Positions 19,245 through 63,149 of a stretch of 64,000 nucleotides of DNA are shown in pieces. A program made the position numbers and the translations under genes. Below the pieces are notes generated by a model. That model did no database searches. It saw only the letters and a program-made list of their open reading frames with translations, and was not told the origin of the DNA. Source of the DNA: Kappaphycus alvarezii (taxonomy: Eukaryota; Rhodophyta; Florideophyceae; Gigartinales; Solieriaceae); assembly GCA_002205965.3 (NCBI GenBank), contig NADL03000047.1:62001-126000 (forward strand), read 5' to 3'. Positions within the stretch are counted from its first letter, which is position 1; each line of letters starts with the position of its first letter.

Positions 19245-20720
19245 AAAGCGGTGAATATTCGGAAGAAGAGATATTCAGAACCCATTACCCACGAAGGAGG
19301 TGTTTCAAGAGAAAAAAGTGCTACCGTGGTATAGTTGAGTGAAAAAAAGTTTTGAGTAAGTACTACAGCTCGGAGATCTATAATCAAGTACAGAATGGGC
19401 AGGTTCTACCAATGATTCTCTGTGACCAGCGTAAGAAAAATGGTTCTTGGGTCTGAAGCAGACTTTCAAGTTCCCACTACTCGGGACTTGACTTGAAGTT
19501 GTCTGCTAGCTTGCTTAACCTCCACAAAATTGAGCAGTTTAATCAACTTATATAGACATTTTGGCTTGCCCTCGAGTCTCAGAAAAGCATACCAAGTACC
19601 ATAAAATGCATCGAATGGAATCTTGTGAACGACAAAGACTAACAGCAGATACTATCAGGAAAAGTATACAAATTTATTCCTTGCAATCTTAGTCGTCGAG
19701 GTCAGAACCCCAAAATTCCTCCAAATAATCTATTCAACCCAATCAGCCGCCGCAAATATCCGCGAACGGCTTATAATTCTCTTTTTCCTCCTAGGAGATA
19801 TCTCAAATGCTTAAGTTGCACCCATTCAGTTCCAGCGTCAGGACCACCTGTTCCATGCTGTCCGGCCCCTCCTCAACATTCCAACACTTTCCATGTCTCC
19901 CTTCCCCTCACCTTCCTCACCCTCCTCACCCTCCTCTTCATCCTCCTCTTCATTCCTGCCAAAAGAATCATGAATAACGATTAATCCTCAGTCCCCCCTT
20001 CTTTCTTCACATCGTCTCCCCCGCCTATGTACATTAGTGGCTCCCACGGGTCCAACAAGTCCTCCTCGTCTTTCTCTTCTACCTCTTCTTCTGCCTCCTC
20101 GAAGCAATGCTGGCGGACCCACTCCCGAATGCGTTCCCGGTCCATTCTTCTACAATAATAATTATAGCCGATTGGTCCATTGGCCATCAAGGCCAGAGCG
20201 ATGAGAGTGCGGCGGCCTCGGGATGACTTGGTGATGGTGAGAGACGGGCGGAGGTTGGTCATGCTGAGGGCAAAAAGGGGGTGAGCCGAAGGGGTAGTTG
20301 ATGGCGGGGGTTTTGTCTCAACTACATCGATTTCGAACTTCAAACAGGGCAACGCATTCGAAAGATTTCACGGCCTTGGACGAAATAAAAATGTGATTTA
20401 ATGTCGCAGCTTTGAACTTGCATGCAATCAGGGCAGGCAATAGCGAATCATCTGCTTGATAAAATATCGGAATTGAATTTGGAGGAAAAGTGGATCACGA
20501 GTCGAAATATTGTTTATTGAAAAAGATGACCAAAACACTCAGAGATAATATGGAAATGGACTTGTACAGTGATTTCGGATTCATAGGGGAATTTTGTTAC
20601 ATGATTCTGTTTGTAAAAGAAAATTAGTGGGAAAAGTTGTTTTTGAAAACTCACTGGGATGAAGAAGACAGGAGTTTGCGGAGAGGACCGCTCTCCTACA
20701 GAAATAACCGTTTTAGAACA
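19245..20720 (-). repeat. Solo gypsy LTR, subfamily 3 (copy G1)
   Basis: Close relative of 50858-52321. On the minus strand it starts TGTTCTAAAAC and its 3' end resembles the last 40 bases of the other gypsy LTRs in altered form. It has the TCTATATAAG promoter box at about 19545, the conserved leader region and the LTR-borne ORF. Its U3 is unlike those of the intact element, but the rest aligns with them. No internal domain is attached. Confidence 0.7.
19981..20352 (-). CDS. LTR-borne acidic protein, subfamily 3
   Basis: The family start is the ATG at 20262 (MTNLRPSLTITKSSRGR), matching MSNLRPSVPISK of the intact element; the open frame extends further upstream to 20352. Then come ALALMANGPIGYN (family: LRLAAYGPTDADDY), RRMDRERIREWVRQH (family: RRQTKKQIIEFVRRL) and an acidic run (FEEAEEEVEEKDEEDLLD). 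An added ending WEPLMYIGGGDDVKKE replaces the usual tail. The conserved tail (KPFADICGG) lies downstream in another frame at about 19700-19790. The role is unknown. It is the most diverged member with an open N-terminal half. Confidence 0.5.
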   Translation of the reverse strand: MPCLKFEIDVVETKPPPSTTPSAHPLFALSMTNLRPSLTITKSSRGRRTLIALALMANGPIGYNYYCRRMDRERIREWVRQHCFEEAEEEVEEKDEEDLLDPWEPLMYIGGGDDVKKEGGTED

Positions 20721-23100: not shown

Positions 23101-24582
23101 TGATAGGGGTAAATAATCGGGAGAATAGATACTCAGAACCAACTACCCCAAGAAGGAGGTGTTGCGAGCGACAAAAGTGCTACCGTGGTATATTTAAACG
23201 AACAAAAAGGAGTGTATATGGAAGAGAGTTAAGAGGGTTACAAGCGAGTATGTAAGGGCAGGGTCTACCACTGATGCTCTGCGACCAGCGTAGGAAAACT
23301 TTTTCTTGGGTCCGGAGTTGACTTTTAACTCCCTACTACTCGGAGCATGACTTGAAGTTGGCTGCCAACTTGCTTGACCTCTCCATGAGGAAGCAGTTTA
23401 CTCAGCTTTTATAGACTTTTGGCTACCCCTCAAGTCCAAACAAAACTACAGAAGGTACGCGGAAACGCATAAAAACAATTTTTGTGGACAAAATATTCCA
23501 AACAAAAGATACTTAATAAACTAGCAATCAATGACGTCCTCTTATTTCTCATTCTCTAAATCAGATCCAAACAACTCCTCTAAAATACCCATGCTGTCCA
23601 AGCAGTCCACACAAATAGCTGCGAAAGTCATATAACTATCTATTTCCTCCTGAGAGATATCGAAACTACTAAAGATATCCCCATCCGGTTCCATCGTCGG
23701 TACCACTTGTTCCCTTCATTCCCCCATCCCAAAACTTCCGATGCCCCCCCTATCCCTCCTACTCCTCGTCCTCGTCCTCGTCCTCTTCTTCGTCCTCGTC
23801 CTCATCGTCGTCACCCTCTCATGATCTCCTCATGATCTTCCTCGACCTCCTCGTACTCCTCATCCTTAACCTCGTAGACCAACTCCAGGGCTGCCCAATC
23901 CTCGAAGGTCTCCCCAGCTCCACCCTCGACCTCCCAATCATGCCCTCAGGGACCACCTCGGCCTCACCCTCGACGAAGAGTTGGCGGACGAACTCGATTA
24001 TCTTCTCCTTAGTCTGGCGTCGCAGGTAGTCTTCTGCGTCCGTTGGGCCATATGCAGCAAGTGCAAGACCATTTAAGGGGCGAAAGGGGGGTTTTTGGTG
24101 ATGGGGGCGGAGGGGCAAAGGTTGTTCATTTTGGTAGACTTTAGGGAATGGGAGGCAATGGAGGGTGTTTTGGGTGTGGGGGGGAGAGGGGTGATGAGCG
24201 AAATGATCGAGGACGTTTGGAACTTAGGATCGGCTCCCGGGGCAGGTCCTACAGATTAGGAATAGGTAAAATAAATCTGCAAGGGATTTTGCATTACTGC
24301 ATTTGCGCTCTTTTCTCAAAAAAGAATTTAGAGGAGGAGGTAAGCTGAAAGGGGAAAAGATCTTGATTCGGGGTCGATTCAGATAGGTAGATACAGTGTA
24401 AGAATATCTACATAAAATGGAAGTAAATTTGGAGAGGACGACGGTAATGATAAGCAAAGTTCAGGGAGGACGAGGAAGAACCGGAACTATGAGCAAATTT
24501 GGACAAGGAGAGGTAGTAAAGTAAACTAAAGGCCTGTAGATGACGGAGACAAAAATCCGTTCCTATCAGCACGCGCCTAACA
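23101..24582 (-). repeat. Solo gypsy LTR, subfamily 2 (copy D), with target duplication
   Basis: On the minus strand it begins TGTTAGGCGC and ends CCCCTATCA, so it has TG...CA ends. It is flanked by CAGTA (23096-23100) and CAGTG (24583-24587), a 5-bp target duplication with one change. The body matches the LTRs of the intact element, including a TATAAAAG box at about 23405 and the small-ORF region. The U3 start differs from that element and matches the truncated copy at 36402. Confidence 0.8.
23542..24129 (-). pseudogene. LTR-borne acidic protein, frameshifted copy (D)
   Basis: ATG at 24129 (MNNLCPS). The sense moves after one indel to the frame 24118-23819: FRPLNGLALAAYGPTDAEDY, LRRQTKEKIIEFVRQLFVEG. 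It then enters a scrambled acidic stretch. The conserved tail returns in another frame near 23697: MEPDGDIFSSFDISQEEI then CLDSMGILEELFGSDLENEK, with stop at 23542-23544. The N-terminal and tail modules are both recognisable although the microsatellite-like acidic middle has lost frame. Confidence 0.6.
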
Positions 24583-34659: not shown

Positions 34660-34681
34660 AATGATCCTTTCGCAGGTTCAT

Positions 34682-34717
<36 letters not shown>

Positions 34718-34847
34718 GTCATAAGGTTTGACCAAGTTAAGCCAGGCGGTCTGTGAAACACAGTCCATCTTTCCCTCCTAAGGCCTCACCGGACCACTGA
34801 ATCGGTAGGAGCACCGGGCAGTGTGTGCAAAGGGCAAGAACGTAATG
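34660..34847 (-). rRNA. 18S rRNA 3'-terminal fragment (degraded)
   Basis: The minus strand reads ATTACGTTCTTGCCCTTTGC, ACACACTGCCCGGTGCTCCT, ACCGATTCAGTGGTCCGGTG, AGGCCTTAGGAGGG, then CTTGGTCAAACCTTATGAC, TTAGAGGAAGGAGAAGTCGT, AACAAGGTTTCCGTAGATGA, ACCTGCGAAAGGATCATT. This is the well-known end of eukaryotic 18S (helices 44-45) with scattered changes (for example CACACTGCCC for CACACCGCCC), so it is a pseudogene copy. About 188 bases remain. It is joined at 34847 to a lineage iii RLE retroelement and at 34640 to a copia LTR. Confidence 0.9.
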
Positions 34848-36404: not shown

Positions 36405-37414
36405 TAGGCGCAGATTTTTTTTGCCGTCGTCATCTACTACAGGCCTATAATTAACTGTACTACCTCTCCTTGTCCAAATTTGCTTATAGTTCCTGTCCTT
36501 CCTCGTCCCCCCTGAACCTCGCTTATCATTACCGCGGTCCTCTCCAAATTTACTTCCATTTTACCTAGAAATTTTTATACTGTATCTACCCCTCTGAATC
36601 GATCCCGAATCAAGTTCTTTTTCCCTTTTTGCTTACCTCCTCCTCCAAATTCGATTTTTTGAGAAAAAGGGTGCAAATGGACTACTACAAAAAATCCCTT
36701 GCAGATTTATTTTACCTATTTCTAATCTATAGAACCTGCCCCGAAAGCCTATTGAAACCCCTTAATTCCGAGTTTTAAACGTTCGCGATCATTTTGCTCG
36801 GCACTCCTTCCCCCCTACACACCCCGCTCACCCCTTTTCCAGAAATATGACATCAAATCGCCCCTCTGTCCCTTATCCAAAAACCGCCCTTCCCGTCCCA
36901 CCAATGGCCTTCGTCTTGCCGCCTACGGGCCAACCGATGCCGACGACTACATCCGGTGGCAAACAAAGAAGCAAATCATCGAGTTACGTTCGCTGCCTCT
37001 TCATAGAAGAAGAGGCGAGGGAGGCAAGTGAGGATGAGGACGAGGACGAAGTGGATGAGGGAACAGGGGCATGAAAAGTATTGGACTGGTGGGGCCTGGA
37101 CTGGAGAGTATGGAACAGGTGGTGCCGACGATGGAACCGGATGGAGATATCTTTAGTAGTCTAGATATATCACAGGAGAAATAGAGAGCTGTGAGCCATT
37201 CGCAGATATTTGTGGAGGCTGCTTGGACAGTATGGATATTTTAGAGGAGTTTTTGGATCTGATTTAGAGAATAAGAAATAAGAGGACCTCATTGATTGTT
37301 AGTTTCTTAAGTATCTTTTGTTTAGAGTATGTCATCCACACAAATTGTTTCTGTGCATTTCCTGGTACCTGCTGTAGTTTTGTTCGGACTTTAGGGGTAG
37401 CTAAAAGTCTATAT
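36402..37414 (+). repeat. Truncated gypsy LTR, subfamily 2 (copy E)
   Basis: Starts TGTTAGGCGC like copy D and follows it through U3, the leader of the small ORF and the acidic-tail region. It is cut off after AAAAGTCTATAT, in the middle of the conserved promoter box, where RT sequence of a lineage iii retroelement begins. About 450 bases of the LTR 3' end are missing. Confidence 0.75.
36847..37268 (+). pseudogene. LTR-borne acidic protein, frameshifted copy (E)
   Basis: ATG at 36847 (MTSNRPSVPYPKTALPVPPM). The family sense then jumps frames through the LRLAAYGPTDADDYIR region to RCLFIEEEAREASEDEDEDE. The tail module at about 37110-37268 gives MEQVVPTMEPDGDIFSSLD, ISQ, then EIESCEPFADICGGCLDSMD, ILEEFLDLI in an adjacent frame. 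One indel near 37180 separates the two halves of the tail. Confidence 0.55.
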
Positions 37415-41028: not shown

Positions 41029-41033
41029 CTACC
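41029..41033. repeat. Target-site duplication CTACC, left copy
   Basis: CTACC directly before the outer end of the 3' LTR (minus orientation). The same five bases lie at 50399-50403, just beyond the partial third LTR, so the whole 41034-50398 block is one insertion. Confidence 0.8.
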
Positions 41034-41254
41034 AGATAGGGGTAAATCGGCGGGGGAAGAGATCTTCAGAACCAATTACCCTTACCCTGAGAAGGAGGTG
41101 TTTGCGAGCGACAAAAGTGCTGCCGTGGTATTGTTGAACGAACAAAAGGGAGTGTATATAGAAGAGAGTTGAGGAAGCTACAAGCAAGTATAAAAGGGGC
41201 AGGGTCTACCACCGACGCTCTGCGACTAGCGTAAGAAAAAGTTTTCTTGGGTCT

Positions 41255-41273
41255 GAAGTTGACTCTCAACTTC
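41255..41273 (-). promoter_or_regulatory. Leader hairpin downstream of the gag promoter
   Basis: GAAGTTGA-CTC-TCAACTTC, an 8-bp perfect stem with a 3-base loop, also at 48808-48826 in the 5' LTR. It would lie in the 5' untranslated RNA about 80 bases after the predicted start. Diverged LTRs keep the place but not all pairs. Confidence 0.5.
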
Positions 41274-41347
41274 CTACTACTCGGGACTTGGCTTGAAGTT
41301 GTCTGCCAACTTGCTTGACCTCTCCATGAGGAAGCAGTTTACTCAGC

Positions 41348-41355
41348 TTATATAG
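41348..41355 (-). promoter_or_regulatory. Conserved LTR TATA box (gag-pol promoter)
   Basis: CTATATAA on the minus strand, equal to 48901-48908 in the other LTR. Variants CTATAAAA or CTATATAA stand at the same place in copies D (about 23405), F (about 62838) and G1/G2 (about 19545, 51155). It is the best conserved regulatory word of the family. Confidence 0.7.
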
Positions 41356-41482
41356 ACTTTTGGCTACCCCTAAAGTCCGAACAAAACTACAGAAGATACT
41401 AAGAAATGCATAAAAATACTTTGTGTGGACAATATACTCTAAGCAAAAGATACTTAAGAAACTAACAATTAATTTGGTCCTC

Positions 41483-42060
41483 TTATTTCCCATTCTCTAA
41501 ATCAGATCCAAACAACTCCTCTAAAATATCCATGCTGTCCAAGCAGTCCCCACAAATATCTGCGAATGGCTCACAACTCTCTATTTCCCCCTGGGAGATA
41601 TCTAGACTACTAAAGATATCTCCATCCGGTTCCATCGTGGGCACAACTTGATCCATACTCTCTATTCCAGGCCCCACCGTCCAACACTTTCCATGCCCCC
41701 TGTTCCTCATCCTCCTCATCCTCCTCCTCTCCTCCTCCCATCCTCCTCCTCCTCTTCCTCCTCCTCATCCTCCTCATCCTCCTCCTCATCTTCCTGATCC
41801 TCGTACACTAGCTCAGGGGCTAACCATTCCTCGAAGGACTCCCCGCTCTCCTCCTCGACCTTCTCAGCCTCTCCCGGACTTACCTCCCTCGCTTCTTCTT
41901 CTATGAAGAGGCGGCGCACGAACTCGATGATTTGCTTCTTTGTTTGCCGCCGGATGTAGTCGTCGGCATCGGTTGGCCCGTAGGCGGCGAGACGAAGGCC
42001 ATTGATGGAACGGGAAGGGCGGTTTTTGGAAATAGGGACAGAGGGGCGAAGGTTGCTCAT
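41483..42060 (-). CDS. LTR-borne acidic protein (copy A, split into two frames)
   Basis: N-terminal frame 42060-41716 (114 codons, true ATG): MSNLRPSVPISKNRPSRSIN, GLRLAAYGPTDADDYIRRQT, KKQIIEFVRRLFIEEEAREV, then a Glu/Asp run. The overlapping frame 41719-41483 carries the tail: GPGIESMDQVVPTMEPDGDI, FSSLDISQGEIESCEPFADI, CGDCLDSMDILEELFGSDLE. The two meet within a GAGGAG/GATGAG microsatellite, where length changes alter frame, so one protein of about 190 residues is the likely ancestral form. It is strongly acidic, with a possible helix before the acidic run. It resembles no retroviral protein I know. It lies wholly upstream of the TATA box at 41348, in U3. Confidence 0.6.
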
Positions 42061-42167
42061 TGTGATAGAAGTTGGGGAACAGGAGGCAATGTGGGTGTTT
42101 GGGTGTGTGGGGGGAGAGGGGTGATGAGTAAAATGATCGGGGGCATTTGGAACTTAGAATAAAGGGG

Positions 42168-42175
42168 TTTAAATA
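42168..42175 (-). promoter_or_regulatory. TATA-like box upstream of the LTR-borne ORF
   Basis: TATTTAAA about 110 bases before the ORF's ATG, also at 49725-49732 in the other LTR. It is not kept in the older solo copies D and E. Confidence 0.5.
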
Positions 42176-42419
42176 GGCTCCCGGGGCAGGTTCTATAGAT
42201 TAGGAATAGGTAAAATAAATCTGCAAGGGATTTTGCAATAGTGCATTTGCGCCCTTCTTCTCAAAAAAAGGCGAATTTGGAGGAGGAGGTAAGCTAAAAG
42301 GGAAAAGGGACTTGATTCGGGGTCGATTCAGAGGGTTAAATACAGTATAAAAATATCTAGATAAAATGGAAGTAAATTTGGAAATGACGGTTGGAGAAGT
42401 TAGGGGCGGGATCGTTGTA

Positions 42420-42519
42420 GGTTGCTGGATTACACGAGGGGAGGACCATTTCCTGTATTACGTGAAGGGAGGACCATTTCCTGTATTAAATGAGGGGAGG
42501 ACCATTTTTTTGTATTACA
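42420..42519 (-). repeat. 28-base tandem repeats in U3
   Basis: GGGAGGACCATTTCCTG plus TATTACGTGAA or TATTAAATGA is repeated three times here, twice in the 5' LTR (about 49985-50047), four times in the partial third LTR (about 50280-50398) and once in copy F. Variable copy number just upstream of a promoter is typical of U3 enhancers. Confidence 0.75.
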
Positions 42520-42532
42520 CGCCCCCTTTCTC
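42520..42532 (-). promoter_or_regulatory. Polypurine tract
   Basis: GAGAAAGGGGGCG immediately before the TGTAATACA start of the 3' LTR, the expected site for plus-strand priming. Confidence 0.8.
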
Positions 42533-42590
42533 AAGGCGAACGTCCCGGGTCGTCACTGCTCTTCTTCTGCTTCCGTTAGTGTTCGCTGTC

Positions 42591-44679
42591 TTATTGATAA
42601 ATGTATGGTCTCTCAAACGGGTACGGATGCAACTGATTACCAATATGATGCTCTAAAAAGTAGGTTCGCATTACTGGTACCTCACTTTGTAGCATAGCCT
42701 CATATATTGGTTTGATCACATCGAGGTGGGGTTGAATACATTCTTCTTCCGTGACTCTTCCGAATCTTCCAAGAGTGAAAAAATATATGTGATATGCAAA
42801 CTCTTCTGGAAGATGCCGGAGGAATGGATGTCGATAAGAAAAGAAGACGCGCATCATCAAGAACGAATCTTCGTAAGATAAGTGCGGTCCATGTAGCGCC
42901 CTAAAACATAAACAGATGCTTATCATGAAATAAGAAATGACCTGCGCATCGTTCGCATCCTCGGAGATATTGCGCAGCCAAAAAGATAATCTTCTTCTTC
43001 CGACTGTATGCTGTGCATGGTTGTGAAGGAGAGCTAGAGATGAAGTTGTGGTGGACGGTCCCGATGAATGGCCGCGACCAGCTCCTGACGTACTGGGACC
43101 TGCACGAGGTCCTCTCGGGGGACGACCGGAACCTCTTCTGGGCGGGTTGTTGTCTCCTGAAGGTCCTCCTCTGGTCATCATCACTGCTTCAGGAGGATCC
43201 TCGCCGCCTCCAACGTTCCCAATTTGTGGCGGAGAAACGTAAGGTTCCCATAGAGGATACGGGACCAGCCTGTATTCCATATCCGGGGGTAAGGCGTAAC
43301 CTCTCAGTCGCACGTCTTGGTTGTTCTTGAGAAATACGTAAATTGGACGGATAATATTCAGATACGTTTGCGACAAGTCTCCAGCAGCTACCATTCCATA
43401 TCTTCCTATAGAGTAATGATATATTACCTCCACAAACTCTGGACCTGCTTCCGTGAACCTTCCGTTTTGGAATGAAAATAGAACTCTTATTAATAGTCGG
43501 AAATCTTCTTGAGGTAGCAATGGTCCGTTCAACGTACGAAAACATAGGCATATATTAATGTAGAAATGGATGATTACGTGGAGTTCGTAGTAGTCCCGCG
43601 TAACCGAGATGATCCATTCCCAGGCCCTTTTTCCTCCCATAGGAATCATTCTATAGTTAAAGATGAGTATGCCCCGTGGTTGCGCATAGTCCTGTGTGAG
43701 AAGGAATTCTTCAGGCCTCTGATGGTAAGGGACCAGACGACGTGCATGGATGGCCCTCCTTGATCTCTTCCCTGAGCTTGAACAGAGCTGATAGTGCGGG
43801 TGTCTTTCCTCCGTGACGATGCAAGGGTTCGAGTACTTGGTTTGGAAGGCCGGCCACTTCACAGCCTGCTGCATTGCTTTTCCATGTACTACAAGTACTT
43901 TAGAGCCAACTGAAAAGGTTCTGACTGCAGGTTCTGCATCCTTATTTCTTGTCTGTGTTAGCGCGCGGTGTGATCTCCAGCCTTCGGTGGCCAGTAGTTC
44001 AACTTCCCTACTCTCTTCATCGATAATATTTGTTTCCATGTCTCTCTGTAACATTCTAGGAGCCCTTCCGTACATTAGCTCGAATGGTGAGCGTCCATTT
44101 CTTCCTCTTCTTCGACGGTAGCCGTATAACACTTTTGGTAAGGCATCTTCCCACTGGATTTCATTCTCCAACATAGTTTTCGATATTGCTCGTTTGATGG
44201 TTCCAACCATCCTCTCCGCTTTCCCGTTGGACATAGGAGCGTATGCGAGAACGGTCTTCAGCTGAATCCCTTTCTCTTCCAAAAAACGAAGCAGTGAAGT
44301 TGCAGTAAAACAAAGGGCGTTATCCGAGATGATCCTTTTTGGAAGACCAAACGGTTCAATTATTTCTTTTTCGATGAATCTCAGTACCACCTCAGCATTT
44401 GCCTCCTCGACTGCAACTGCTATTGGCCATCCAGTAAGATGTTCCACCCCTATAAGGAGATATTTGTTTCCGGAAGAAGTTTCCTTGAACGGGCCCGAAG
44501 TCAATTGAGAAGGTTTCAAAGAGACCGGAAACTGGAAAACTTAGAGTTGTCTTATACTTCCGTATTGGAGTGAATTTTTGGCAGTTGTCGCAGCTTTTCA
44601 CGAAGTTATAGACGTCCTTATGGATACCGGGCCACCAGAATCTCTCAGTTACGAATTTTTGGTTGTTTCGAGATCCCAA
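42591..44679 (-). CDS. Integrase with two extra C-terminal domains
   Basis: The zinc region is FHDELGHWD (end of the upstream ORF), with WWPGIHKDVYNFVKSCDNC in the frame at 44679-44480. The core has FSIDFGPVQG and, in the 642-codon ORF (44519-42591), SDN at about residue 66 and E102 in KAERM, exactly 35 residues apart (DD35E). A C-terminal SH3-like part follows (VGSKVLVVHG, RRAIHARRLVPYH, about 205-266). Beyond it lie two similar domains, about 308-432 and 521-642, sharing YxxICLCFR.L.GP.L..ED, RV.FS, EF...IY..., GR.G.V, I.PIY and PYP...PY. A Pro/Gly/Ser-rich linker (435-492) joins them. Two compensating frameshifts lie near 44660 and 44480. Confidence 0.85.
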
Positions 44680-45569
44680 TGCCCTAGCTCATCATGGAAA
44701 GTCCTCAAGATCTTCATTCTTTCTTTCAAAGGGGCCACTAGTCGGGGACCGGCTTTAGTGTGCCGGAAAAGTTTCCCATTCCACAATGTAAAAGCCTTTT
44801 GATTCCTGCGTACCCAATTTCGGTGTTCAAGATCAACCTTTCTCATTTCTAGTCCATCGAGGAATTTGATCAGTCCGTGAATATTAGCTTCGTACTCGTT
44901 ATCGTTCGGCAACTGCAACTCGGCGACTCCGACGATGTCCTCCGAAGCTTTTTCATTTGGAATCAGTGCGTCCCTCAAGCGGGATAGGTAATCGGCAGGC
45001 TGATTATTGCGTCCGGGTCTATACACAATTTCAAACCGATATTCTGCGAAAATGTCGAGCCATCGGGCCAAGCGGTGATGTACATCCTTCTTTTGGAATG
45101 CTGTTTTAAGTGCCTGGTGATCAGTTATCAAGACAAATTTCTCGAGTGATAAAAGGTATACGCGAAACTTTTTCAGCGCGAAGACGACAGCTAGCGCTTC
45201 TTTCTCGCAGACTGAGTATCTCTTTTCCGCGTCATTCAGAGTTCGGCTTGCGAATTGAACAGGGTGTAGTCTTCCGTTTTCATCTTTTTGGGACAAAACG
45301 GCACCCAAAGACCGTTCTGAGGCATCTGTCTCCACAACGAATGGTCTCTTGAAATCTGGGTACATGAGAACTGGGGGGACACATAGCTTATCTTTAAGCT
45401 CCTGAAATGCAGTTTCCATTTCCTTGTTCCAGTAAAATTTTCCGTTCTTCGTAGTGCTGGCATGTAACGGTGCTGCAGTCTTGGCGAAATCTTTGATAAA
45501 TCTTCTGTAATATGAGGCCAGTCCTAAGAAGCTTCGGACCTCCGTCTTTGAAGCGGGCCTTGGTGCCAA
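44649..45569 (-). CDS. Gypsy RT thumb/RNase H
   Basis: 306 codons. RT connection: SFLGLASYYRRFIKDFA (13-29). RNase H: PFVVETDASERSLGAVLSQK (77-96, catalytic D82), CEKEALAVVFALKKFRVYL (121-139, catalytic E124), FVLITDHQALKTAF (145-158, catalytic D150), RPGRNNQPADYLSRL (184-198, catalytic D193). It ends in the integrase zinc region. It is in a different frame from the RT ORF upstream (one frame change near 45572) and in the same frame as the main integrase ORF. Confidence 0.9.
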   Translation of the reverse strand: MAPRPASKTEVRSFLGLASYYRRFIKDFAKTAAPLHASTTKNGKFYWNKEMETAFQELKDKLCVPPVLMYPDFKRPFVVETDASERSLGAVLSQKDENGRLHPVQFASRTLNDAEKRYSVCEKEALAVVFALKKFRVYLLSLEKFVLITDHQALKTAFQKKDVHHRLARWLDIFAEYRFEIVYRPGRNNQPADYLSRLRDALIPNEKASEDIVGVAELQLPNDNEYEANIHGLIKFLDGLEMRKVDLEHRNWVRRNQKAFTLWNGKLFRHTKAGPRLVAPLKERMKILRTFHDELGHWDLETTKNS

Positions 45570-45571
45570 CT

Positions 45572-46447
45572 TTATTTTTTCGTTTTCTCTGGATCCACTC
45601 TAATTCCCTCTTGGTCGACGATATGACCGAGTAATTGGATAGAAGTTTTCGCAAAGAAGCATTTGCTCAACTTAATTTTCAAGCTATACTCCGATATCCT
45701 CTCCACAACTGTCTTGACGTGCGAGATGTGCTGATCCAATGTTTCTGAGAATATGACGACATCATCGATATAGACTCTTGCGAATGGAAGTCCTTTCAAA
45801 ACCTCGTTCATCATTCTTTGGAATGTAGCTGGTGCATTCATGAGACCAAAAGGCATCACTTCGAACCTGAACGTACCGGCTTTGCTGGTAAAGGTTGTTT
45901 TTTCCTTACATTTTTCATCCAATGGAATCTGCCAATAGCCAGTGTAAAGGTCAATTGAGGTGAAATATCTCCCGTCCTTCAGGTCCTCGAGGATCTCCTC
46001 CATGTTCGGAATCGGAAATCGATCGGGTATCATTCTCTGGTTCAGTTGTCGGTAATCGACGCAAAAACGCAGCTTTCCATCCTTCTTTGGTGCGACCACA
46101 ACTGGAAACGACCATGGGGATGAAACTGGTCGAATAATATCATTTTTCAGCATACTTGTAACATTTTCTGAGATAAATTGGTCATATTTTGGCGGTTGAC
46201 GTCTAGGCTTGTGGTAAATCGGTTGAGTGTCGGTAAGTTCGAACGAGTGAGTAACCGGTACACTTGCTTGTCTTAAATCTGAAACGCTCCATGCAATTAC
46301 TTCGGAAGATGTTAACATGTCGGATATTTTCAGTGAGGCGGGGGCGGGAAGGTGCTGCACTTTTCCTTGGATTTCTGCCATTTGGCGCCCTTTTTCTTCT
46401 TGATCCTCAACCTCAATATTTTGAAGGACCTCTTCCGTCGTGCTCAC
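45572..46447 (-). CDS. Gypsy reverse transcriptase
   Basis: About 290 codons. Blocks: PIYHKPRRQPPKYDQF (76-91), VVVAPKKDGKLRFCVDYRQL (116-135), TSIDLYTGYWQIPL (163-176, first catalytic D166), FEVMPFGLMNAPATFQRMM (195-213), VYIDDVVIFSETL (225-237, catalytic D228 and D229), LLGHIVDQEGIRVDPEK (272-288). The frame opens at a GTG next to the TGA that ends the upstream frame, so it is probably reached by frameshift from gag-protease rather than started here. A degenerate plus-strand copy of this region is at 55730-55930. Confidence 0.92.
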   Translation of the reverse strand: MSTTEEVLQNIEVEDQEEKGRQMAEIQGKVQHLPAPASLKISDMLTSSEVIAWSVSDLRQASVPVTHSFELTDTQPIYHKPRRQPPKYDQFISENVTSMLKNDIIRPVSSPWSFPVVVAPKKDGKLRFCVDYRQLNQRMIPDRFPIPNMEEILEDLKDGRYFTSIDLYTGYWQIPLDEKCKEKTTFTSKAGTFRFEVMPFGLMNAPATFQRMMNEVLKGLPFARVYIDDVVIFSETLDQHISHVKTVVERISEYSLKIKLSKCFFAKTSIQLLGHIVDQEGIRVDPEKTKK

Positions 46448-46906
46448 ATCTTCATATATGGAATTCGCGTATTCTTATTTTCTTTGCAAAGGTAATCTTC
46501 TTTCATGCTCCGAATTCTGTCCTTTGATTCGATATCATCGCAAAAAGAAACACATTCGGGTTTCAAACTTATCCTAGAATCCCAGTCGTCATCTGTTTCA
46601 AACCCGGAATCATAATCGTCCCATGCCATGTTCATTAACCCCCGAGGGTACCCTTTTCCACTTCTGAAAGTGTTAGTTGGTTCCGAATCTTCGCTGTCAT
46701 AGCTAGAAGTGAAATCTTCACTGTCCGTTTCTTTTAAATCTTCAGGATGCGTGCTTTTGTCGAAATCCAGGGGCATCTTCACGGTTCTGCCGTCAATATT
46801 AACTGAAACCATTTGGTTGCCCAAGTCAATGCATGTCCTAGTCTTTCCATGTGGGCAGCCAATGATTGCATCGAAAGGGAGATCCGGCATGACAAGAAAG
46901 TCTACA
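46444..46906 (-). CDS. Protease C-terminus and acidic spacer
   Basis: The frame 46890-46444 continues the protease whose N-terminus ends the gag ORF: DFLVMPDLPFDAIIGCPHGK (flap and IIG motif), VSVNIDGRTVKMPLDF. It is followed by an acidic linker with DSEDFTSSYDSEDSE and DDYDSGFETDDDWDSR, leading to RT. It is one frame away from both gag and RT. The acidic linker is unusual in gypsy pol. Confidence 0.75.
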
Positions 46907-48766
46907 TCACTTTAGATCCCCAAAGAACACGGAAACCTTGTCAACAGTGCCCATGCATTTTGAGACGGTTCCATCCGCTACAGTTATTTTTCGAGTCGTT
47001 GGAGTAATTTCGAGACCTAGATCTGTCACCAAAGTTTCTGAAATGAGGTTTGGAACAGCACCCGAATCGAAGAGAGCTTGGGTTTTCATACCCAATACTT
47101 TGACTGGTACCAGCTTAAGACGTCTTGGTGCTGTCGAGGCCGATTGAAGAAACAGTTTCTTACCCTTAGCGGACTTATTAGACCTGATAATTTTTTTGAG
47201 TTCTTTTCTCGCATCCTCTGCGTCGCCCCTCAAAAGTTGACCAAACGTTATCCCAGTTGGGGCCGATGCAAGCTCAGCCACCAAATTGTACCTCTTCACA
47301 TACTCTAGTACGTCCTTAGAGATACTCTTAACTTTCTTACTCTTTTTCGTCTTCTTGGCCGGAGTGACTCCCACTCCTGGAACAACTTGATCAGACCTCT
47401 TGGTTCGAGGAGGTACAGGTGCTGGGATATGCTCCAGCATTCCATACTCTAGCCTAGGTTTCTTCGATAAAATGTTCCCTTCCCCATCCCTTTTTGTCAC
47501 ATTGACTTGACTAATCTCTTCAGCGATGGATACGTTACCGGCATCCGTCAACCTTTGATCCCTTCTATTTTGTAAGATTTTCACCTCTGGTCCTGACTCA
47601 CTCCTCGCTTCCGATAAATTTGCTCTTCTGTTGTCTTTAGACCAGCAGTTACTTTCATGATGCCCATATCGACCGCACTTTGCACAACGAGTGTTTCTAT
47701 GTGGATTATCAGGACACCTGTTTGCAAAGTGTCCAGGCTTGTGACAGTAAGAACAGACTTCTGCGGCCTTAGGGGCCCCAGACTGGTTCTTCTTAATGGT
47801 AAGAGTAAGGCTTTCCAACTGCGAGGTTATCATGTCAAGTCGATTATCGAATCGGGTTTCCAACCTTTCTTCCAAGTTTTTGACATCGCTCCTGACAGAT
47901 TCTAATGCCGCTGCACTAGTAGCCGGCCTTTGATAATTCTTTTCAGGATGTACGATAGACATCGATGTGCGGGTTTCCCTCGGTACCTCACTCAGTGACT
48001 GAAACGTCTCCGAATTTTTGACAAATTCTACTATGGTACCCTTCAGTTCATCAAAAGTGTGAGGGCCCTTGATGAGGAGGAAATCGGAGAGCCGCTTATC
48101 CCCCATAGCCGCCTTACGCAGCATTCCGTACTTGGCTTGGGCGTTGAACCCAGCCTTTTCATAAAGATCACACAAGTACACCAATGAGCTTAACAAATCG
48201 TCGAAGTTGAGCCGGGCCTCTATGGCGGTACGAATCATCTCATCTGGTTCTACCTCCTTAGCATACTCTTTCACAAGCCACTCACATACCTCACCGAAGT
48301 TACGCCCATTCCCGTTAAGAGACCACCCGTCGATAAACTTGGACTTATATTTGTGCTTTGCGTCACCATGAAGATAGGCGAAGATACTTGCGGCCTTCTC
48401 TTCATCGCCCTTCTCTCGCATCACAACGTTGACATATGTGTAAAGAAACTCCTCAACGTCTTCAGTCTTGCCCCTGTGAACGTTATACGAGCAGCATTGA
48501 GATCCATGATTACAGAAAAGAAATCCCCCGAAGTGTTCCTTACTACTGCTCAACTCGAATACCTCGGGTGCAACCCCCTCCACAAGAGTACCAAATGATA
48601 GGGGTAAATCGGCGGGGGAGAGATCCTCAGAACCAATTACCCTGAGAAGGAGGTGTTGCGAGCGACAAAAGTGCTGCCGTGGTATTGTTGAACGAACAAA
48701 AGGGAGTGTATATAGAAGAGAGTTGAGAAAGCTACAAGCAAGTATAAAAGGGGCAGGGTCTACCAC
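46907..48766 (-). CDS. Gag with two zinc knuckles and protease N-terminus
   Basis: 619 codons in one frame. The capsid-like helical region is at about 100-260 (TEDVEEFLYTYVNVVMREKG, RNFGEVCEWLVKEYAKEVE). The zinc knuckles are CSYCHKPGHFANRC (338-351) and CAKCGRYGHHESNC (361-374). A basic stretch KKTKKSKKVK lies near 471-480. The protease active site is ALFDSGAVPNLIS (564-576). The first 57 codons lie inside the 5' LTR, and the next ones cover the primer site. The frame has no ATG from the upstream stop (about 48850) until Met116; codon 1 here is GTG. Start may be at Met116, at a non-AUG codon, or supplied by splicing. Confidence 0.85.
   Translation of the reverse strand: MVDPAPFILACSFLNSLLYTLPFVRSTIPRQHFCRSQHLLLRVIGSEDLSPADLPLSFGTLVEGVAPEVFELSSSKEHFGGFLFCNHGSQCCSYNVHRGKTEDVEEFLYTYVNVVMREKGDEEKAASIFAYLHGDAKHKYKSKFIDGWSLNGNGRNFGEVCEWLVKEYAKEVEPDEMIRTAIEARLNFDDLLSSLVYLCDLYEKAGFNAQAKYGMLRKAAMGDKRLSDFLLIKGPHTFDELKGTIVEFVKNSETFQSLSEVPRETRTSMSIVHPEKNYQRPATSAAALESVRSDVKNLEERLETRFDNRLDMITSQLESLTLTIKKNQSGAPKAAEVCSYCHKPGHFANRCPDNPHRNTRCAKCGRYGHHESNCWSKDNRRANLSEARSESGPEVKILQNRRDQRLTDAGNVSIAEEISQVNVTKRDGEGNILSKKPRLEYGMLEHIPAPVPPRTKRSDQVVPGVGVTPAKKTKKSKKVKSISKDVLEYVKRYNLVAELASAPTGITFGQLLRGDAEDARKELKKIIRSNKSAKGKKLFLQSASTAPRRLKLVPVKVLGMKTQALFDSGAVPNLISETLVTDLGLEITPTTRKITVADGTVSKCMGTVDKVSVFFGDLK
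48577..48595 (-). promoter_or_regulatory. Primer-binding site of the gypsy element
   Basis: Directly after the LTR end CTATCA, the minus strand reads TTTGGTACTCTTGTGGAGG. It holds TGG two bases in, complementary to a tRNA 3' CCA. I cannot name the tRNA; its 3' end would be CCTCCACAAGAGTACCA. It is translated in the gag frame. Confidence 0.55.
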
Positions 48767-48829
48767 TGACGCTCTGCGACTAGCGTAAGAAAAGTTTTCT
48801 TGGGTCTGAAGTTGACTCTCAACTTCCTA

Positions 48830-48880
48830 CTACTCGGGACTTGGCTTGAAGTTGTCTGCCAACTTGCTTGACCTCTCCAT
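48830..48880 (-). CDS. Conserved 16-codon ORF after the LTR TATA box
   Basis: MERSSKLADNFKPSPE then stop. The same peptide is at 41277-41327, and copies D and F keep MERSS..LA.NFK.... with the stop in place. The ATG lies about 27 bases after the first T of the TATA box, so the RNA may start at or just after it. If included in the RNA it would be an upstream ORF before gag. It is too short for firm judgement. Confidence 0.35.
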   Translation of the reverse strand: MERSSKLADNFKPSPE

Positions 48881-48900
48881 GAGGAAGCAGTTTACTCAGC

Positions 48901-48908
48901 TTATATAG
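48901..48908 (-). promoter_or_regulatory. TATA box of the 5' LTR
   Basis: CTATATAA, expected to drive the genomic RNA from about 48875, upstream of the gag frame and the primer site. Confidence 0.7.
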
Positions 48909-49035
48909 ACTTTTGGCTACCCCTAAAGTCCGAACAAAACTACAGAAGATACTAAGAAATGCATAAAAATACTTTGTGTGGACAATATACTCTAAGCAAA
49001 AGATACTTAAGAAACTAACAATTAATTTGGTCCTC

Positions 49036-49703
49036 TTATTTCCCATTCTCTAAATCAGATCCAAACAACTCCTCTAAAATATCCATGCTGTCCAAGCAGT
49101 CCCCACAAATATCTGCGAATGGCTCACAACTCTCTATTTCCCCCTGGGAGATATCTAGACTACTAAAGATATCTCCATCCGGTTCCATCGTGGGCACAAC
49201 TTGATCCATACTCTCTATTCCAGGCCCCACCGGTCCAACACTTTCCATGCCCCCTGTTGCCTCATCCTCCTCCTCCTCTCCTCCTCCTCCTCTCCCATCC
49301 TCTCCTCCTCATCTCTCTCCTCATCCTCCTCATCCTCCTCCTCATCTTCCTGATCCTCGTACACTAGCTCAGGGGCTAACCATTCCTCGAAGGACTCCCC
49401 GCTCTCCTCCTCGACCTTCTCAGCCTCTCCCGGACTTACCTCCCTCGCTTCTTCTTCTATGAAGAGGCGGCGCACGAACTCGATGATTTGCTTCTTTGTT
49501 TGCCGCCGGATGTAGTCGTCGGCATCGGTTGGCCCGTAGGCGGCGAGACGAAGGCCATTGATGGAACGGGAAGGGCGGTTTTTGGAAATAGGGACAGAGG
49601 GGCGAAGGTTGCTCATTGTGATAGAAGTTGGGGAACAGGAGGCAATGTGGGGTGCTTTGGGTGTGTGGGGGAGAGGGGTGATGAGTAAAATGATCGGGGG
49701 CAT
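49036..49703 (-). CDS. LTR-borne acidic protein (copy B, two frames)
   Basis: The N-terminal frame 49703-49215 has the family Met at 49616 (MSNLRPS); an upstream in-frame ATG at 49703 would add 29 residues (MPPIILLITPLPHTPKA...), but it lies only about 20 bases after the TATA-like box. The middle is a run of Asp/Glu with EERMGEEEEERRRR. The tail frame 49248-49036 starts with an ATG (MESVGPVGPGIESMDQ) and ends DILEELFGSDLENGK, identical to copy A. The two frames overlap by 34 bases. Near identity of the tail in both LTRs, and its retention in old solo LTRs, suggest a protein with a function. Confidence 0.6.
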
Positions 49704-50056
49704 TTGGAACTTAGAATAAAGGGGTTTAAATAGGCTCCCGGGGCAGGTTCTATAGATTAGGAATAGGTAAAATAAATCTGCAAGGGATTTTGCAATAGTG
49801 CATTTGCGCCCTTCTTCTCAAAAAAAGGCGAATTTGGAGGAGGAGGTAAGCTAAAAGGGAAAAGGGACTTGATTCGGGGTCGATTCAGAGGGTTAAATAC
49901 AGTATAAAAATATCTAGATAAAATGGAAGTAAATTTGGAAATGACGGTTGGAGAAGTTAGGGGCGGGATCGTTGTAGGTTGCTGGATTACACGAGGGGAG
50001 GACCATTTCCTGTCTTACGTGAAGGGAGGACCATTTTTTGTATTACACGGTCAACT

Positions 50057-50398
50057 TAGGTAAAATAAATCTGCAAGGAATTTTGCAGTAGTGCATTTGC
50101 GCCTTTCTTCTCAAAAAAAAGGCGAATTTGGAGGAGGAGGTAAGCTAAAAGGGAAAAGGGACTTGATTCGGGGTCGATTCAGAAGGTTAAATACAGTATA
50201 AAAATATCTAGATAAATGGAAGTAAATTTGGAAATGACGGTTGTAGAAGTTAGGGGCGGGATCGTTGTAGGTTGCTGGATTACACGAGGGGAGGACCATT
50301 TCCTGTATTACGTGAAGGGAGGACCATTTCCTGTATTAAATGAAGGGAGGACCATTTCCTGTATTAAATGAGGGGAGGACCATTTTTTTTGTATTACA
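50057..50398 (-). repeat. Partial third LTR (copy C, U3 only)
   Basis: Matches the first 340 bases of the LTRs (from TGTAATACAAAA to GCAGATTTATTTTACC) with four 28-base units. It is separated from the 5' LTR by about 10 bases and followed by the right target duplication. It probably remains from a tandem element or LTR from which the rest was deleted. Confidence 0.8.
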
Positions 50399-50403
50399 CT
50401 ACC
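50399..50403. repeat. Target-site duplication CTACC, right copy
   Basis: Pairs with 41029-41033. Confidence 0.8.
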
Positions 50404-50857: not shown

Positions 50858-52321
50858 GATAGGGTAAATAGTCCGAGGAAGGATACTCAGAACTAATATC
50901 CAAGAAGGGGGTGTTGCAAGGGACAAGTGCTACCGTGGTATAGCTGAGTGAACAAAAGTGTTGAGTAGGGACGACAGCTGGAAGGGCTACAAGCAAGTAC
51001 AGATGGGGCAGGTTTACCACTGATGCTCTGTGACCAGCGTAAGAAAAATGGTTCTTGGGTCTGAAGCAGACTTTCAAGTTCCCTACTCGGGACTTGACTT
51101 GAAGTTGTCTGCTAGCTTGCTTAACCTCCACAAATTGAGCAGTTTACTCAACTTATATAGACATTTTGCTTGCCCTCGAGTCTCAGAAAAGTATACTAAG
51201 TACCATAAAATGCATCGAATGGAATCTTGTGAACGACAAAGACTAACAGCAGATACTATCAGGAAAAGTATACAAATTTATTCTTACAATTACAATCTTA
51301 GTCCTCGAGTCAGAACCCCAAAATTCCTCCAAATAATCTATTCAACCCAATCACCGCCGCAAATATCCTCGAACGGCTTATAATTCTCTATTTCCTCCTA
51401 GGAGATATCTTAAATGCTTAAGTTGCACCCATTCAGTTCCAGCTCAGGCCACCTGTTCCATGCTGTCCGGCCCCCTCCTCAACATTCCAACACTTTCCAT
51501 GTCCCCTTCCCCTCACCTTCCTCACCCTCCTCATCCTCCTCTTCATCCTCCTCTTCATTTCTGCCAAAAAGAATCATGAATAACGATTAATCCCTCAGTC
51601 CCCCTTCGTTCTTCACATCGTCTCCCCCGCCTATGTACATTAGTGGCTCCCACGGGTCCAACAGACCTCCTCGTCTTTCTCTTCTACCTCTTCTTCTGTC
51701 TCCTCGAAGCAATGCTGGCGGACCCACTCCCGAATGCGTTCCCGGTCCATTCTTCTACAATAATAATTATAGCCGATTGGGTCCATTGGCCATCAAGGCC
51801 AGAGCGATGAGAGTGTGGCGGCCTCGGGATGACTTGGTGATGGTGAGAGACGGGCGGAGGTTGGTCATGCTGAGGGCAAAAAGGGGGTGAGCCGAAGGGG
51901 TAGTTGATGGCGGGGGTTTGTCTCAACTACATCGATTTCGAACTTCAAACAGGGGAACGCATTCGAAAGATTCACGGCCTTGGACGAAATAAAAATGTGA
52001 GTTAATGTCGCAAGTTTTGAACTTGCATGCAATCAGGGCGGGCAATAGCGAACGTCTGCTTGATAAAATATCGGAATTGAATTTGGAGGAAAAAGCGATC
52101 AAGAGTCAAAATATTGTTTATTGAAAAAGATGACCAAACACTCAGAATAATATGGAAATGGACTTGTACAGTGATTTCGGATTCATAGGGGGAATTTTGT
52201 TACATGATTCTGTTTGTAAAAGAAAATTAGTGGAAGAGTTGTTTTTGAAAATCACGGGGATGAAGAAGACAGGAGTTTGTGGAGAGTACCGCTCTTCACA
52301 GAAAGAACCGGTTTTATAACA
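50858..52321 (-). repeat. Solo gypsy LTR, subfamily 3 (copy G2)
   Basis: On the minus strand starts TGTTATAAAACC and ends near ATTTACCCTATC. It is closely alike with 19245-20720 along its length, with small indels. It carries the same promoter box (about 51155) and the same small-ORF region, frameshifted by an extra base near 51780. Confidence 0.75.
51590..51870 (-). pseudogene. LTR-borne acidic protein, frameshifted copy (G2)
   Basis: Begins MTNLRPSLTITKSSRGR at 51869 as in copy G1, then loses frame at an added base (GGGTCC for GGTCC, about 51780). The acidic run and the WEPLMYIGGG ending remain readable in other frames. Confidence 0.5.
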
Positions 52322-61772: not shown

Positions 61773-63149
61773 TGTTAATACAGAAAATGGTCCTCCCCTC
61801 GTGTAATCCAGCAAATTACAACGAATCCCGCCCCTGACTCCGCTTACCATCCTTTCCATTTGTCTACCATCCTCCCTAGTATTTGATACTGTATTCTCTC
61901 CTCCAAATCAACGTTTTACGTCTTTTTTATCTACCTTCATCATCAAATTCACTCCTTATGTAGAAATTTCACGCAAATGCGCTAGTGCAATTTCAACTTT
62001 AATTTTTTAGTATCGTCTCCATTCCGCCTCTAAGGTGTACTTATTAAACCCATTTTACCCAGCTCTTTTTGAGATCCACCAACCCCTACACATACTACCC
62101 TCCCCCTCACACTCTCTATCCTCCATCCACAATCGCTCCACTTCATTTCAACCAAAAATGAACAATCTTCGCCCCTGCGCCTACATCACCAAAATCATCA
62201 CCCCCGTCCCTAAACTCCATTCCCACACTCCTTTTCGGACCTACTGACCGTGATGACTACCTACCTTGACAAACACAAAAAAGGTGAGCGAATTCGTGGG
62301 TCGCTTGTTCGTCGAGGAGGATGCGGAGGAGGTACCTGAGGGGCAGGAGTGGGAAGTCATGGAGGGAGCTGGGGAGACCTTCGAGGAGTGTGCAGCCCCA
62401 GAATTGGTCTACGAGGTTGACGAAAAAGGAGACCGAGGAGGATGATGGGGAGGATGAGATGATGAGGACGGGGACGAGGACGATGAGGGAAAGGGAGACA
62501 TGGGAAATGTTGGAATGGTTGGGCCGGGGCTATAAATTATGGAACAGTTGGTACCGACGATGGAACCGGATGGGGATATCTTTAGTAGTTTCGATATCTC
62601 CCAGAGGGAAATATATAGTTATGAACCGTTTGCAGATATTTGTGGGGTCTGCTTGGGTAGAATGGATATTTTGGAGAATTTGTACCTGATGTAGAGAATG
62701 GGAAATAAGAGGACCATATTGATTGTTAGTTTATTAAGTATCTTTTGTATAGAGTAAATTGTCCACGCAAAGTGTTTTTAATGAATTTCCTGGTATCTTC
62801 TGTAGTTTTGTTCGGACTTTAGGGGTAACCAAAAGTCTATAAAAGCTTAGTTAACTGCTTTTCATGGAGAGGTCAAGCGAGTTGGCGGACAACTTCAAGT
62901 CAAGTCCCGAGTAGTAGGAAGTTTAGAGTCAACTCCAGACCCGAAAAACATTATTCCTATGCTGGTTGCAGAGCATCAGTGCTTGACCCTGTCCCATTGT
63001 ATATTTTTTGTAGCCTCTAAACTTTATTCTTTATCAACTCCTTTTTGTTCGTTCAACTATACCACGATAGCACTTTTATCGCTTGCAACACCTCCTTCTT
63101 GGGGTATTTGGTTCTAATTATCTCTTCTCCTGACTATTTCCCCTAATCA
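61773..63149 (+). repeat. Solo gypsy LTR, subfamily 1 (copy F)
   Basis: Starts TGTTAATACAGAAAATGGTC and ends CCCCTAATCA, with TG...CA ends. It has one 28-base unit, the CTATAAAAG box at about 62838, the conserved 16-codon ORF at about 62863 and the acidic-protein region. It is older than copies A and B. Flanks TGCAT and CAGGT do not match, so its target duplication is lost or it arose by recombination. Confidence 0.75.
62158..62694 (+). pseudogene. LTR-borne acidic protein, frameshifted copy (F)
   Basis: ATG at 62158 (MNNLRPCAYITKIITPVPKL). The middle is scrambled by indels. The tail module is intact from an ATG at 62539 to the stop at 62692-62694: MEQLVPTMEPDGDIFSSFDI, SQREIYSYEPFADICGVCLG, RMDILENLYLM. 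Confidence 0.55.

Follow-up and report, generated by a model that had tools for sequence, protein, structure and literature searches.

Accessory genes that lie at the 3' end of a retroelement and reach into the region of the long terminal repeat (LTR) are familiar from the foamy viruses (tas/bel) and the lentiviruses (nef), whose frames begin outside the LTR. The foamy viruses possess tas, bel-2 and an internal promoter (PMC7828637), and the closest positional parallel that we met in this literature is the sag gene of mouse mammary tumour virus (MMTV), likewise a coding frame within the LTR (PMC3038982). Here we describe a gene carried by both LTRs of a Gypsy retrotransposon that occupies positions 41034-50398 (minus strand) of a 64,000-nucleotide stretch, hereafter the window, of the genome of the red alga Kappaphycus alvarezii (contig NADL03000047.1). 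Unlike the foamy and lentiviral genes, its candidate promoter box, start codon and stop codon are all inside the LTR; a complete insertion therefore always holds the gene twice, and a solo LTR can preserve it. We regard it as close to certain that this is a real gene under selection; it would represent a retroelement accessory gene, unusual in its place and apparently without known protein relatives.

The first-pass annotation of the window had placed a small open reading frame (ORF) region in both LTRs upstream of a TATATAA box, and this is borne out: on the minus strand the gene extends from an ATG at 42060 to a tail stop at 41483 in the 3' LTR and from 49616 to 49036 in the 5' LTR (Table 1), with the TATATAA box, here called P2, about 130 bp downstream of the stop in either case. 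The TATA-type box of its own that had been noted about 110 bases before the ATG is likewise present (TATTTAAA, here called P1, 115/116 bp upstream). Only the extent of the 5' copy has to be amended, for the gene is in place but position 49703, to which the ORF had been extended, is an in-frame upstream ATG, the start common to the relatives (MSN/MTN/MNNLRPS) being at 49616. In the two window copies the N-terminal and tail frames are unjoined, and the indels sit in the GA-rich acidic run. Since a TATA box of the P2 type recurs at the matching place in the LTRs of three clades (A, E and G, see below), we take TATATAA to mark the start of the genomic RNA and infer that the frame lies within the LTR upstream of the genomic promoter, that is, in U3. 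A spliced gene was also considered, a GTAAGT in the frame of the window copies resembling a splice donor, and was dropped because the relatives B, C and D do not have it.

All sequences compared in this study come from a single genome (336 Mb, 884 contigs), and the clade names used, A for the LTRs of the window element and B to G for diverged relatives, rest on similarity and not on a tree. For clade A we examined 60 loci, namely 30 of the 40 matches from one genome search and the best-listed 30 of at least 150 from a protein search, which correspond to 54 distinct copies by position, the window's two included; as these are best matches, the fractions given do not equal genome-wide rates. The first-pass annotation would have counted the gene as refuted by a genome-wide consensus in which its two frames never joined and the N-terminal one was closed. 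The frames do join: 20 of the 54 copies read as a single frame of 177-204 residues from start to tail stop, of which one (L037) runs through an out-of-frame middle and some belong together as the 5' and 3' LTRs of a single insertion (L067 and L068, for instance, to judge from their position and border type). Of the 54 copies, 52 agree in all of their first 80 residues, 45 have the 59-residue tail and its stop without any change, in whichever frame, and at least 150 genomic places encode the 90-residue N-terminus at 100% amino-acid identity, a count to which both LTRs of one element can contribute. According to LTR-border probes, the 54 loci comprise 29 3' LTRs, 20 5' LTRs, 2 that are both and 3 solo-like copies (no internal sequence adjoining the LTR within the fetched stretch), and one of the latter, L022, bears the full frame. 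Polymorphism within the clade is too low to use, with 1 replacement and 2 silent distinct changes in the N-terminus (56/57 rows) and 3 replacement and 1 silent distinct changes in the tail (50/56 rows), the rows including repeats of some loci.

Relatives of the gene occur in LTRs well outside clade A. The window itself holds B, C and D, which share about 79-88% DNA identity with the LTR of the window element across the longer matched stretches, and two members of the more distant clade E. A search of the genome with the E frame returned 164 matches; among those listed, below the query and at 61-77% identity, stop-free rows outnumber those with stops. Twenty E copies fetched from this search, mostly chosen for long frames, include 7 in which a single frame stays open to the end of an FGSD-type tail (190-202 residues; in L083, 222 residues counted from an upstream ATG); matching LTR sequence follows downstream in 17 of the 20. 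Because this protein-anchored sample is biased toward long frames, a second one was drawn with a non-coding R-U5 piece of an E LTR as the query (20 copies, rows 3-22 of the 40 listed). Recognisable pieces of the gene are present in 18 of these 20 and an N-terminal piece in 16, and almost every copy is broken as judged by its longest frames. From the R-U5-anchored sample and a later search came two further sets, F (L093, L103, L106 and L118, the last with its tail lost) and G (L115-L117), whose proteins measure 167-168 residues from the shared start, or 194 in L116 by way of an upstream in-frame ATG. Aligned over their whole length, L013 (A) and L082 (E) encode proteins that are 47-49% identical; for A and G the identity is 37-40%, and each of the clades A, E and G includes single full-length frames. 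Contig C550 holds an element of E type whose two LTRs, 93.8% identical, both carry a broken gene; between them are pieces of reverse transcriptase, integrase and the post-integrase region that belong to the same lineage. As an observation apart, copies of a clade-G-like LTR gene are evenly spaced on two contigs, as if in LTR-sharing tandem arrays (G000:C782:16803-48210, about 10.4 kb apart; C629:68632-91631, 7.5-7.7 kb apart).

Selection on the frame was assessed from the ratio of replacement to silent differences (pN/pS) in the coding frame, frame 0, compared with the ratio obtained likewise in each of the other two, with ranges from a codon bootstrap that are optimistic owing to kinship among copies. 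Copies entered the N-terminal and tail sets only if 80% of the probe was matched without a gap, and the set for the SUMO-interacting motif (SIM) segment excludes matches shorter than 15 residues; L101, a near-copy of L092, was left out of all reported sets other than the row lists and L069, the same place as L096, out of the pooled ones. For the N-terminus, pN/pS is 0.44 (0.34-0.55) in the non-coding-anchored copies, 10 of 20 being usable, with 1.10 and 1.20 in the other frames; it is 0.38 in the 20 protein-anchored copies (other frames 1.15 and 0.78) and 0.39 (0.31-0.52) in all 30 (1.08 and 1.06). A ratio near 1 across many copies had been named beforehand as what would speak against the gene, and the N-terminus stands well below it; the tail is weaker, at 0.62 in 13 of the 20 protein-anchored copies (other frames 1.16 and 1.07) and 0.54 (0.41-0.71) in the full set of 27, which also takes in A, B and D (0.94 and 0.97). 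The SIM segment gives 0.52 (0.31-0.98) in 13 copies and 0.51 (0.32-0.87) in 32, with 0.80-0.95 in the other frames. Comparisons between clades (A-B, A-D, A-G, G-E) agree in that silent changes are more frequent and replacements rarer in frame 0 than in the other two: in the N-terminus, pN is 0.29 and pS 0.64 for A-B (other frames 0.40/0.34 and 0.39/0.37), 0.27 and 0.65-0.68 for A-G, and 0.16 and 0.67 for G-E (0.30/0.19 and 0.30/0.20); in the tail, pN is 0.11 and pS 0.44 for A-D, and 0.26 and 0.57 for G-E. One A-E comparison of the N-terminus was set aside, its alignment being off by one codon. True constraint is probably stronger than measured because broken copies are counted in.

The candidate promoter box upstream of the gene recurs as well, in most of the families examined. 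The sequence TA[TC]TTAAA is found exactly in 29 of 47 rows no more than 140 bp from the start, at -83 to -88 in E and at -115/-116 in A (one place, L069/L096, is entered twice and LTR partners are counted separately), and over 34 E rows the octamer has a mean pairwise identity of 0.93 as against 0.80/0.84 in its flanks. In clade G, TATTTAAA stands about 105-108 bp upstream of the shared start, and in clade F either TATATAAA or CATATAAA is seen by eye near -90. Along this same region the A and G LTRs (41034-42519; L115-L117) are 80-84% alike upstream and in the first part of the frame, 65-68% of the silent sites differ in the first 57 codons, and DNA identity drops from 24-25/30 to 14/30 inside 150 bases, a pattern that suggests mosaic LTRs, perhaps generated by template switching.

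The predicted protein has a basic N-terminus (isoelectric point, pI, about 10), an acidic middle and an acidic hydrophobic tail (pI 4.1) of the MDILEELFGSDLED type with a DILEELF-type motif recognised by eye, a tail which we take to resemble acidic activation segments; the pI of the whole protein is likewise 4.1 in clades A and E. The notion of an acidic activator, which the first-pass annotation had advanced as a guess, comes from composition and stays a guess. The same annotation had likened the gene to that of the MMTV LTR in position only, and rightly so: MMTV Sag, a retroviral product, is a membrane protein of type II, whereas the maximum Kyte-Doolittle mean over 19 residues is 0.66-0.86 here (one protein each from A, E and G), so that the acidic protein of this Gypsy retrotransposon has no membrane-length hydrophobic stretch and does not qualify as a type II transmembrane protein, a comparison made by description only. 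Phospho-SIM motifs are known from proteins such as PML. A SIM-type motif of this kind, VIVISDSSD, occurs in clades E and G and in degenerate form in F, and could not have been seen from the window alone; by the rule of a four-residue hydrophobic core beside acidic or phosphorylatable residues (PMC12751080), here with at least three V/I/L in the core, the E and G sequences qualify. The arrangement, a core next to serines and acids, recalls PML and other host proteins of the phospho-SIM kind, with which nothing else is known to be shared. The segment aligns in 40 of 50 rows, two of them (E51w and L110) scrambled by frameshifts, and is unaligned in the other 10, namely the A-side LTRs A3w, B23w, C36w and D62w, the E copy E19w and five non-coding-anchored copies.

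No family like it had been known to the first-pass annotation, and our searches are of the same tenor. Against 5.8 billion proteins, in a search that depends on words of five residues in common and passes over distant relatives, the N-terminus gave no candidate and the full E protein gave 681, none at an expectation value (E) of up to 10; a Pfam profile scan yielded matches below the cut-offs only, the PDB sequence search a single match at E 0.42, and scans of viral contigs no relative of the protein. As far as these searches reach, the proteins would form a family without known relatives.

Our best reading, to which we give somewhat less than an even chance, is that the gene encodes a nuclear regulator of LTR transcription or silencing, a transactivator or anti-silencer working in trans. 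It starts from a gene that sits in both LTRs, purifying selection that follows its frame, a P1 box that recurs and several diverged lineages that share the same three-part protein, to which the SIM of the sister clades adds a further pointer to the nucleus. On this model U3 would be a complete gene, with P1 (TATTTAAA), a start codon and a frame of about 170-200 codons, followed by P2 (TATATAA), from which the genomic RNA would start. A short mRNA with its 3' end in R/U5 would be made from P1 of any integrated LTR, solo LTRs included; the protein would be brought to nucleic acid or to the nucleus by its basic N-terminal segment; the SIM-type motif, where present, might contact SUMO attached to transcription proteins or chromatin; and the tail, acidic and hydrophobic (MDILEELFGSDLED type), might recruit the transcription machinery or displace a SUMO-dependent repressor. 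The target in trans would thus be P2 of sibling LTRs. A connection between SUMO and retrotransposon transcription exists in yeast, where Ty elements of both the Copia and the Gypsy kind are transcriptionally restricted by the Nup84 complex, which in the case of Ty1 works by tethering the SUMO protease Ulp1 (PMC8585004). A bolder version, possible though on the whole rather doubtful, makes each LTR a self-contained selfish gene with tandem promoters, the first producing a SUMO-reading activator that opens the second on sibling LTRs, with window-type lineages having swapped the SUMO reader for a longer acidic run; solo LTRs would then keep supplying the activator, and dead elements would help living ones.

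Several results weigh against a trans-acting regulator of this kind. In clade A, 34 of the 54 distinct copies, both window copies among them, lack a single joined frame, and the clade has no SIM, its middle being PELVYEDQEDEDEE, which means that not every lineage can depend on binding SUMO; motifs as short as the SIM and the acidic ones can, moreover, mislead. In the non-coding-anchored copies the tail (11 of 20) has a pN/pS of 0.69 with a range of 0.48-1.06 (other frames 0.94 and 0.83), the non-coding R-U5 control (19 copies; 0.72, 0.93 and 0.93) itself goes down to 0.72, and the short A-C comparison of the N-terminus, at 0.09/0.15, is the same as frame 1 and shows no preference for the coding frame. 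No TATTTAAA box was found upstream of the start when B, C and D were scanned for it. The AlphaFold2 model of the N-terminus is poor, its mean predicted local distance difference test (pLDDT) score of 57 being too low for a fold search, and the lineages compared are those of one genome.

Other explanations share part of this evidence. The region might be conserved as a promoter or RNA element, its ORF being incidental or a relic, and it is true that other LTR DNA, R-U5 included, is conserved too and that many copies are frameshifted; nevertheless, constraint tracks codon phase (0.38-0.44 in the N-terminus versus 0.78-1.20 in the other frames and 0.72-0.93 in R-U5), and full-length single frames persist in A, E and G, which makes the absence of any protein function extremely improbable overall and already refutes it for the N-terminus. 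A role in integration or in the particle, in which the protein would travel with integrase or Gag and its SUMO and acidic contacts would steer integration to SUMO-rich chromatin or aid nuclear entry, is unlikely in our estimation: a SIM and an acidic tail are equally suited to tethering, elements of the same lineage carry extra domains after integrase, and SUMO is mentioned in a study of the host factors behind Tf1 integration (PMC5741268), but the gene has its own P1 box apart from gag and pol, as fits a regulator made early or alone, and the similarity of the protein to the element's own ORFs is unconvincing (best E 0.19).

Two further alternatives keep the protein in the nucleus. As a counter-defence decoy it would block a SUMO-dependent host silencing enzyme genome-wide and not at its own LTR, a proposal favoured by the serines and the CK2-phosphorylatable type of acidic flank that go with the SIM-type core, and by herpesvirus ICP0 and K-Rta, described as SUMO-targeting ligases; Pfam, however, recognised no catalytic or RING domain, the motif is absent from clade A, and we judge the decoy quite unlikely. 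Copy-number control from within an element has a precedent in Ty1, whose truncated Gag p22 limits its copy number, and a self-limiting repressor that binds or sequesters activators at LTRs would profit from a gene whose dose, being LTR-borne, climbs with copy number as such control requires. Yet selection on elements normally favours activation, and no strong self-limitation is visible when at least 150 clade A places share an identical N-terminus; such a repressor is accordingly improbable, somewhat more so than the decoy.

Foamy virus Tas is a transactivator, and the LTR gene would resemble it in this if it does encode a regulator of its own LTRs; the internal promoter of the foamy viruses would have its counterpart in P1. 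The VANDAL elements of Arabidopsis belong to an element class other than Gypsy. A comparison may nonetheless be drawn with their VANC protein, likewise transposon-encoded and trans-acting, which keeps elements unsilenced (PMC5735166), an anti-silencing effect demonstrated there and presumed for the LTR gene. Additional ORFs of unclear function are described in plant LTR retrotransposons (PMC7264820), a paper whose text, when searched, contained the phrases "in the LTR", "within the LTR" and "inside the LTR" 0 times each; a fungal element with a variable U3 has gag and pol as its two ORFs (PMC10787394), and in another paper "LTR ORF" denotes polyprotein ORFs (PMC12037069). The literature searched, mostly titles and the beginnings of abstracts, disclosed no retrotransposon with a gene wholly within U3, although the words "gene in the LTR" do occur in one of the papers (PMC3087523). 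LTRs are usually treated as regulatory DNA; here a Gypsy LTR is a selected protein gene in several families of one genome, which would give MMTV sag a companion among LTR-borne genes and would make element-encoded control of LTR transcription testable beyond the vertebrate retroviruses. In practical terms, pipelines that mask LTRs as non-coding can miss genes, and dating that assumes neutral LTRs can bias ages.

Table 1. Coordinates in the window of the LTR gene, its promoter boxes, the host element and diverged LTR relatives
Feature	Position	Strand	Remarks
LTR gene, 3' LTR, N-terminal and acidic frame	41716..42060	-	114 aa to stop
LTR gene, 3' LTR, tail frame	41483..41719	-	different frame
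LTR gene, 5' LTR, N-terminal and acidic frame	49215..49616	-	ORF list starts at upstream ATG 49703
LTR gene, 5' LTR, tail frame	49036..49248	-	
P1 TATTTAAA box, 3' LTR	42168..42175	-	115 bp upstream of ATG
P1 TATTTAAA box, 5' LTR	49725..49732	-	116 bp upstream of ATG
P2 TATATAA box, 3' LTR	41348..41354	-	taken as genomic-RNA promoter
P2 TATATAA box, 5' LTR	48901..48907	-	
3' LTR	41034..42519	-	ends TGTAATACA...CTATCT
5' LTR	48596..50398	-	ends TGTAATACA...CTATCA; ~290-bp internal tandem duplication near own 5' end
Target-site duplication CTACC, left	41029..41033	.	
Target-site duplication CTACC, right	50399..50403	.	
Gag and aspartic protease	46907..48421	-	Pfam Asp_protease_2 E 4.2e-8; zf-CCHC E 0.051, below its cut-off (zinc knuckle weak)
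Reverse transcriptase piece	45572..46381	-	Pfam RVT_1 E 5.9e-36
RNase H piece	44649..45419	-	Pfam RT_RNaseH E 1.4e-39
ORF after RNase H	42591..44234	-	putative integrase end (by eye) and two copies of ~130-aa domain
LTR relative B	23104..24440	-	~80% DNA identity; gene copy broken
LTR relative C	36537..37414	+	gene broken
LTR relative D	61776..63145	+	gene broken
Clade E LTR relative	19981..20262	-	N-terminal frame open, 93 aa; stops in tail
Second clade E LTR relative	50862..51868	-	frame broken

The element that carries the two window copies has the attributes of a Ty3/Gypsy LTR retrotransposon. Its LTRs begin with TG, are about 98% identical to each other and are flanked at both ends of the element by a 5-bp target duplication (CTACC, + strand), and the internal order agrees with that of Ty3/Gypsy, protease, reverse transcriptase and RNase H being recognised by Pfam, Gag by position and integrase by eye only (MSNGKAERMVGTIKRAISKT); a Pfam scan of the 547-residue ORF gave no integrase match, Integrase_H2C2 being weak (E 0.066). 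The internal frames are broken. The Gag-protease ORF has 4 relatives in the protein search, at 37-56% identity. The domain of about 130 residues after integrase is present in two copies (42594-42998 and 43233-43628, minus strand) that are 36% identical, with a low-confidence helical prediction; a Pfam scan gave no match to it, and its AlphaFold2 model (pLDDT 57) is too low in confidence for a fold search. In the C550 element (L109), a piece resembling this domain is located ahead of the 3' LTR.

Some minor features of the LTRs and their surroundings deserve mention. The tandem duplication of the 5' end of the 5' LTR, about 290 bp, occupies 49750-50398 (minus strand), and the number of GGACCATTT short repeats by the LTR start seems to differ from copy to copy. 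Within R-U5 (41200-41330, minus strand) there are two small perfect hairpins, AAGTTG-GCAGA-CAACTT and GAAGTTGA-GAG-TCAACTTC, and the folding of this piece as RNA is unremarkable when compared with shuffles (z -0.71). Elsewhere in the window, an isolated 157-bp 3' end of an 18S rRNA gene lies at 34667-34823 (minus strand), with no further rRNA piece found in the window, and at another locus (L114:1-1200, G000:C63) a stretch that by eye is not rRNA stands upstream of the 3' part of 18S, as if a mobile element interrupted the gene.

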